Positions 1,239 to 1,680 of a stretch of DNA of 32,418 bases are shown here, piece by piece. The notes under the pieces were generated by a model. It worked only from the letters and a program-made list of their open reading frames with translations, searched no databases and was not told where the DNA came from. A program made the position numbers and the translations under genes. Source of the stretch: Flavobacterium sp. Its GTDB lineage: Bacteria; Bacteroidota; Bacteroidia; Flavobacteriales; Flavobacteriaceae. The stretch lies in assembly GCA_002733185.1 (NCBI GenBank), contig NVUT01000006.1, positions 58,782 to 91,199 of the forward strand, in the 5' to 3' direction. The first letter of the stretch is position 1. Each line of letters begins with the position of its first letter.

Positions 1239-1257
1239 TGTTTTTTGCTTTATGCAA

Positions 1258-1292
1258 AAAGCTTTAAGCTGTATGCTGTATGCTTTATGCTG
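1258..1292. repeat. Inverted-repeat arm made of 7-nt units (GCTTTAA GCTGTAT GCTGTAT GCTTTAT GCT)
   Basis: Direct reading; pairs with 1646-1680. Confidence 0.85.
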
Positions 1293-1294
1293 GG

Positions 1295-1645
1295 TTATTT
1301 AAGTTTTTGTTTTAATGAATAAATTTTTTGCTTTATAATGTTTATATCTGAATTTAATTTTTCAAATGAACTTATATCAATATAGTTTAGCTCTTTTGAA
1401 AGTATGAGTAAATATTCAGATTCTGATGCTGAGCCTAATGCTATTGTTAAAAAACGATTGAATTCTGCGTCACTATCTCTACCGCATCCTTCACTTATAT
1501 TTGTAGGAATTGATGAAGAAGCTCTTCTAATTTGAGATGTTAAACCATAAATTTCTTCTTTTGGAAAGTTTTTAGTAAGGCTATAAATTTCTAAAGTAAA
1601 AGAATGACTTAATGTCCAAATGTTATGTTTTTTAAAATCTCTCAT
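1295..1645 (-). CDS. Four-helix-bundle protein, S23 ribosomal / 23S rRNA intervening-sequence protein family
   Basis: 116 aa with family hallmarks: '[61 protein letters not shown]'. Confidence 0.9.
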
Positions 1646-1680
1646 AGCATACAGCCTAAAGCCTACAGCTTACAGCATTT
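1646..1680. repeat. Inverted-repeat arm made of 7-nt units (reverse complement GCTGTAA GCTGTAG GCTTTAG GCTGTAT GCT)
   Basis: Direct reading; pairs with 1258-1292 and lies immediately between the groES stop (1681) and the ORF start (1645). Confidence 0.85.

Follow-up and report, generated by a model that had tools for sequence, protein, structure and literature searches.

For decades intervening sequences (IVSs) have counted as oddities of ribosomal RNA that carry an unexplained protein. The STRR heptanucleotide repeats of cyanobacteria are intergenic direct repeats for which no associated gene is described. The 23S IVS of Coxiella burnetii is 428 nt long and contains a sense S23 ORF and terminal inverted repeats; tandem GACAGAT heptamers stand just before the S23 start, and the element is excised by RNase III (PMC4990558). 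Its S23 protein is reportedly not made in vivo in all probability, and the ORF was described as degrading (PMC4990558). The TAACTGA heptamer repeats of Beggiatoaceae are described as direct and without an associated gene (PMC4679880). Genes for 23S_rRNA_IVP proteins have also been reported in cas loci, 18 in number (PMC3936711; see also PMC10910872), the Avd protein of diversity-generating retroelements is homologous to PF05635 and has the four-helix-bundle fold (PMC10053308), and in Flavobacterium psychrophilum one S23 transcript is noted to change in biofilm (PMC5787105). A literature search, outside of which most subscription literature lay, returned no paper that describes S23 ORFs in protein operons as units of the IVS type.

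The stretch of DNA analysed here (the window, 32,418 nt of a Flavobacterium genome) carries on its minus strand groES, an S23 ORF and groEL, in that order and with the S23 ORF in sense relative to both host genes (Table 1). A sequence-only reading of the window had proposed a 116-aa S23-family ORF between groES and groEL, enclosed by inverted arms of about 35 nt with 29 of 35 positions matching, each arm a tandem array of 7-nt units. The family searches agree, with solved relatives in 2gsc and 2rld, and the arms measure 36 nt each with 83% complementarity (30/36). That reading also had the arms directly abutting the ORF, which is true of the start codon, which touches the upstream arm exactly, and not of the stop codon, which ends 3 nt short of the downstream arm. 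The upstream arm reaches to the final base of the groES stop codon, and the whole unit, an S23 ORF enclosed by inverted heptad arms, runs from ~1246 to 1681 (about 436 nt). The heptads are beyond chance, since the GCWKTADGCWKTADGC pattern occurs 34 times in the genome (at most one mismatch) and never in the backward reading; the exact matches include six within the two window arms. Folded as RNA, the region is more stable than its dinucleotide shuffles (z = -3.14; none of 100 did as well), and, as the same reading had anticipated, the arms are paired in the minimum-energy structure.

Table 1. Features of the groES-S23-groEL locus in window coordinates.
Feature	Position	Strand	Evidence
S23 / 23S_rRNA_IVP (four helix bundle protein) ORF, 116 aa	1295..1645	-	PF05635 E=3.5e-38, TIGR02436 E=3.6e-38
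Upstream arm (mRNA 5'), tandem 7-nt units, from groES stop codon to S23 start codon	1646..1681	-	lag-7 match 21/28
Upstream arm, order of units	1646..1681	-	GCTGTAA/GCTGTAG/GCTTTAG/GCTGTAT
Downstream arm (mRNA 3'), inverted 7-nt units, pairs with upstream arm in RNA fold	1256..1291	-	lag-7 match 23/28
Downstream arm, order of units	1256..1291	-	GCATAAA/GCATACA/GCATACA/GCTTAAA
Additional heptad-like stretch GCATAAAGC and A-rich groEL leader AAAAAACA, reaching groEL start codon (1238)	1239..1255	-	sequence
groES, host gene upstream in operon (stop 1681)	1681..1956	-	PF00166 E=1.9e-33
groEL, host gene downstream, 3' part beyond window	1..1238	-	PF00118 E=1.1e-54

The groES ORF as listed extends to 1962 with a TTG start, and the ATG at 1956 is the likelier start. 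A terminator scan of the locus found none, promoter-like sites there were no more frequent than chance, and no LSU rRNA match is present in the window; the genome encodes RNase III. Elsewhere in the window, positions 6427-7557 encode a protein of leucine-rich repeats whose C-terminal domain is a type IX secretion sorting domain (PF18962); the adjacent gene has a 1054-aa product whose esterase-like match is weak.

We consider it likely that the unit at ~1246-1681 is a relative of the 23S rRNA IVS that resides in an operon, with an S23 ORF between inverted degenerate 7-nt arrays whose stem may be cut by RNase III. The unit would lack a transcription signal of its own, and S23 would be read from the message of the host operon. 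In the groESL message the paired arms would form a long stem that loops out the S23 ORF; by analogy with the rRNA IVSs, RNase III might then cut the stem, freeing the S23 message and separating the groES and groEL mRNAs. Cleavage or altered readthrough might also shift groES:groEL stoichiometry, as the sequence-only reading suggested. A unit placed in sense between a stop and a start should cost the host little. The S23 protein most probably binds the paired arms bearing its own word and would thereby serve the upkeep or spread of the unit.

The window's genome holds three S23 ORFs, each with a different flanking word: besides the one at groESL, a degenerate copy with an internal stop lies between fadJ- and thiolase-type genes, and a third ORF lies between moaE and moaC/B-type genes. 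S23 was found in 146 of 200 genomes of Flavobacteriaceae, with up to 19 copies, and in 237 of 297 genomes of Bacteroidota; S23 units with heptad arms are also present in heterocystous cyanobacteria. We assembled 93 loci, consisting of the top-scoring Flavobacteriaceae matches and those of the window's genome. In 90 of these the ORF lies in sense between two co-directional genes, an arrangement found for 59% of the ORFs in 386 kb of the window's genome (p = 2e-17, although loci that share a site are not fully independent and p-values from this set overstate independence). Bacteroidota-wide the figure is 24 of 29 loci. About 26 junctions are represented among the 93 loci, e.g. fadJ-thiolase, metH1-metH2, hemD-hemE, sdhA-sdhB, trpG-trpD, hisH-hisA and sufB (gene names were assigned by reading the neighbouring proteins, not by family searches). 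With few exceptions the units thus sit in sense where the stop of one gene is followed by the start of a co-directional one. Exceptions to the sense rule are two S23 ORFs that run antisense to both neighbours, at nrdA/nrdB-type genes and at toxin-secretion ABC transporter genes (L235 and L234).

Several other junctions deserve description. Five leu operons (L187, L189, L192, L194, L200) carry two S23 units, with a 7-nt word before leuD and an 8-nt AGGCAACA-type word before leuB, and a heptad hairpin without S23 is seen at L187 and L188. S23 units also stand within cas operons, as cas6-S23-cas4 and cas10-S23-cmr3 (L233, L242, L243). At L217, L219 and L221 the downstream arm runs into the next gene's start codon, which pairing would therefore cover.

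The flanks of S23 ORFs carry degenerate 7- or 8-nt words that are locus-specific and usually inverted between the two sides, so the 7-nt-period inverted flanks that the sequence-only reading had looked to find at S23 ORFs elsewhere do occur. Over the 93 loci, lag-7 identity in the flanks was 0.412; shuffled flanks gave 0.303, and control windows at a distance of 280-360 nt gave 0.264. Strong lag-7 windows made up 23.7% of flanks and 0 of controls, and a weaker 8-nt period is also present in the flanks. Inverted similarity between the two flanks of the same locus scored 14.3 versus 9.6 for swapped flanks, with 35 of 93 loci in the top 5% (4.7 expected), while for direct similarity the count was 7 of 93. 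This swap test used the 93-locus set in place of one dominated by groESL loci with one common word. Phylum-wide the values were 14.0 for own and 9.05 for swapped flanks (12 of 29 in the top 5%), and within the groESL loci own arms scored 14.74 versus 13.23 for swapped ones (p = 0.0017). The upstream arm is G-rich and the downstream arm C-rich at 65 of 93 loci, versus 3 with the opposite arrangement and 12 and 12 in control windows. Direct instead of inverted arrays are found at four loci (L067, L115, L205, L233), and at the Flavobacterium groESL loci each flank is able to fold on itself. Duplex energy favoured own flank pairs over swapped ones, yet values nearly as low came from distant coding windows and from the opposite orientation; as this measure failed to separate own flanks from either, we relied on sequence matching.

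Heptad arrays also occur without S23, both in the window's genome (a 419-kb census) and in Flavobacterium groES-groEL gaps. In a separate count, 172 arrays lay within 150 nt of an S23 ORF, in a total of 51.3 kb of which 21.7 kb is noncoding; other noncoding DNA (59.5 kb) held 51 arrays and coding DNA (584 kb) 5. Array density beside S23 is therefore four to nine times that of other noncoding DNA, depending on whether all flank bases or only the noncoding ones are counted. Since S23-less arrays are common, some arms may be remnants or lead an independent existence. Examples in the window's genome (G000) are the arrays of the GCTTTAG/GCAGTAG word family at C44:5691-5734, C48:64424-64509 and C54:52764-52786, with no S23 ORF nearby.

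The groES-groEL site itself is only sometimes occupied. S23 lies between the two genes in 5 of the 30 groES loci first examined, namely the window, three loci of the same genus (L005, L014, L015) and one of another genus (L031). The remaining loci, including most of the same genus, have S23-less gaps of 11 to 105 nt, and the groEL leader at these empty sites is similarly A-rich to that of the window; in a Flavobacterium sample, 2 of 30 groES-groEL loci were filled. At the occupied sites, S23 and GroEL distances are correlated (Spearman 0.594; the highest of 300 permutations reached 0.255), and the median dN/dS of S23 is 0.067 over 388 pairs, compared to 0.023 for GroEL, which indicates that the ORF is under purifying selection and the protein maintained. 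From the empty sites, the distance correlation and the dN/dS values together, we conclude that the groESL unit occurs patchily and for the most part descends along with its host, and that its protein is kept. The sequence-only reading had proposed comparing related groES-groEL gaps for empty sites, which turned up within the same genus, and had named as the contrary case that relatives all carry the ORF and repeats by vertical descent. The empty sites speak against that case, yet S23 at groESL is mostly inherited with the host, and movement must therefore be infrequent.

Some gaps have a structure of their own. One Flavobacterium groES-groEL gap (L286) contains inverted heptad arrays, GCTTTTGGC... 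/ ...GCCAAAAGC, with no ORF enclosed, and resembles an S23-less unit. In the range L266-L293, many S23-less gaps have heptads on one side only, of the AGTATTAAG type that also marks the fadJ-thiolase units, and at L150:2531-2775 several tandemly repeated, heptad-rich, self-complementary segments lie between groES and the S23 ORF.

The gap between groES and groEL is too divergent for the unit ends to be read from its empty sites, and the ends were supplied by plasmids of Nostoc sp. ATCC 53789. Here two related operons on plasmids a and c, with flanking genes 91-99% identical in DNA, have reciprocal empty and filled junctions. In plasmid c, junction A is TAG-GTT-ATG, where plasmid a has a complete unit; in plasmid a, junction B is TAA-GTT-ATG, where plasmid c has a different unit. 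Both inserts follow the stop codon directly and extend to the next start or to a point just ahead of it, and a possible 5-bp duplication, TTCTA, is seen at junction A only, with none evident at junction B. In addition, S23 DNA that is 77-82% identical, with the same AGTCAGA-type word, is present at three junctions with dissimilar neighbours (L237/L238, L239, L310). The reciprocal junctions and these related units at unrelated junctions imply that the unit moves with its arms, and support the suggestion made from the window alone that it might be mobile. On the sequences compared, S23 units are gained or lost whole, arms included.

The word also appears to go with the S23 lineage. At different sites, 59% of S23 pairs that are at least 55% identical share words on the measure applied, versus 2-4% of pairs at 30-45% identity; at site level the link is modest (Mantel r = 0.20, p = 0.016) and comes mostly from the closest S23 pairs. 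The S23 tree is structured by site, with 33 site changes (minimum 28, shuffles 91). One word, GCTNTAA, is common to the groES-groEL units of Flavobacteriaceae and the leuC-leuD units of Cytophagales/Chitinophagales. Finally, on plasmid p2 of Azospirillum lipoferum (L244) an S23 ORF lies inside an LSU rRNA match and is flanked on both sides by inverted GAGGACA-type heptads. A genuine rRNA IVS thus has the same anatomy, in line with the earlier proposal of an IVS-like element in a protein-coding operon, and by these comparisons the window case is one of a widespread class and not a peculiarity of groESL.

Could the unit instead be a domesticated regulator, its mobility past, in which S23 and the stem tune groES versus groEL expression to the benefit of the host? 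The strong purifying selection, the co-divergence of S23 with GroEL and the restriction of S23 to junctions of core-metabolism operons would all fit. However, a self-serving element should likewise have its protein under selection, presence at groESL is patchy, and the same design recurs at unrelated junctions, including those of conjugation and cas operons; we regard domestication as unlikely. Another reading is a DNA transposon of MITE or IS type, mobilised by a transposase in trans, with the arms as its terminal inverted repeats and S23 as a passenger. Inverted ends, gain and loss of the whole unit and the possible TTCTA duplication at Nostoc junction A are what such an element would give. 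The arm words nevertheless differ between units, even among the three of the window's genome, and a single transposase would find no common binding target in ends that differ in sequence. The strong sense bias, the location of the same type of unit in rRNA, and a phage search with the S23 protein that matched no record also argue against a transposon, which seems improbable.

Two further readings set aside the link between gene and arms or assign S23 to a known system. Replication slippage might grow heptads in any operon gap, with S23 there by coincidence, as the S23-less arrays in the window's genome and at Flavobacterium groES-groEL would allow. But arrays are several times denser beside S23, arms of one locus fit each other better than those of other loci, words travel with the S23 lineage, and slippage cannot produce inverted arrays flanking one gene on both sides; we give this reading little credence. 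An accessory role in a diversity-generating retroelement (as Avd) or in CRISPR-Cas draws on the homology to PF05635 and on the S23 genes of cas loci, both those reported and those between cas6 and cas4 or cas10 and cmr3 here. Most S23 junctions, however, are unrelated to cas genes, and unlike for Avd, no reverse transcriptase partner (PF00078) was matched in the window's genome, which is 84% complete, making this reading barely credible. At the window locus this reading is already largely refuted, and its retroelement version is rejected for want of a reverse transcriptase match.

Returning to the preferred reading of an operon-resident IVS relative, what is new is the presence of an IVS-type unit at many operon junctions, where previously it was described mainly inside ribosomal RNA genes. 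The locus-specific words, complementary between arms, give S23 a testable partner, its own arms, and give S23 units a testable effect, the splitting of operon messages; the arms could let the cell cut an operon message at the position of the unit. More broadly and more tentatively, bacterial operons may harbour a large class of mobile units, so far unrecognised and resident in messages, with the 23S rRNA IVSs as its first known members, each S23 lineage recognising its own 7- or 8-nt arm word, and many STRR-like heptads and CRISPR-operon S23 genes being arms, remnants or copies of such units; this wider proposal could well be wrong. The presence of the unit at many operon junctions also offers one explanation for three puzzles, namely heptad repeats whose role is unexplained, the occurrence of S23 in cas operons, and the abundance in Bacteroidota of genes for a 'four helix bundle protein'.

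Among described systems, the 23S_rRNA_IVP genes of cas loci belong to the same family and share the co-directional placement (cas6-S23-cas4, cas10-S23-cmr3). The literature on them reads a CRISPR-linked function, whereas we find it more likely that they are resident IVS-type units. The STRR and Beggiatoaceae repeats are likewise intergenic 7-nt tandem units, degenerate or exact, that lie near start codons at several loci, but the S23 arrays are mostly inverted pairs around an ORF. Closest are the 23S rRNA IVSs of Coxiella burnetii and Leptospira, with a sense S23 ORF, a length of ~430 nt, stem-forming inverted ends and heptamers by the S23 start. In contrast to these, the window unit lies between groES and groEL and not in an rRNA helix, its cleavage is putative, and its S23 is under strong purifying selection while that of Coxiella was described as degrading. 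Because size and layout match those of an IVS but the location differs, we describe the window unit as an operon-resident variant and do not file it as a 23S rRNA IVS.
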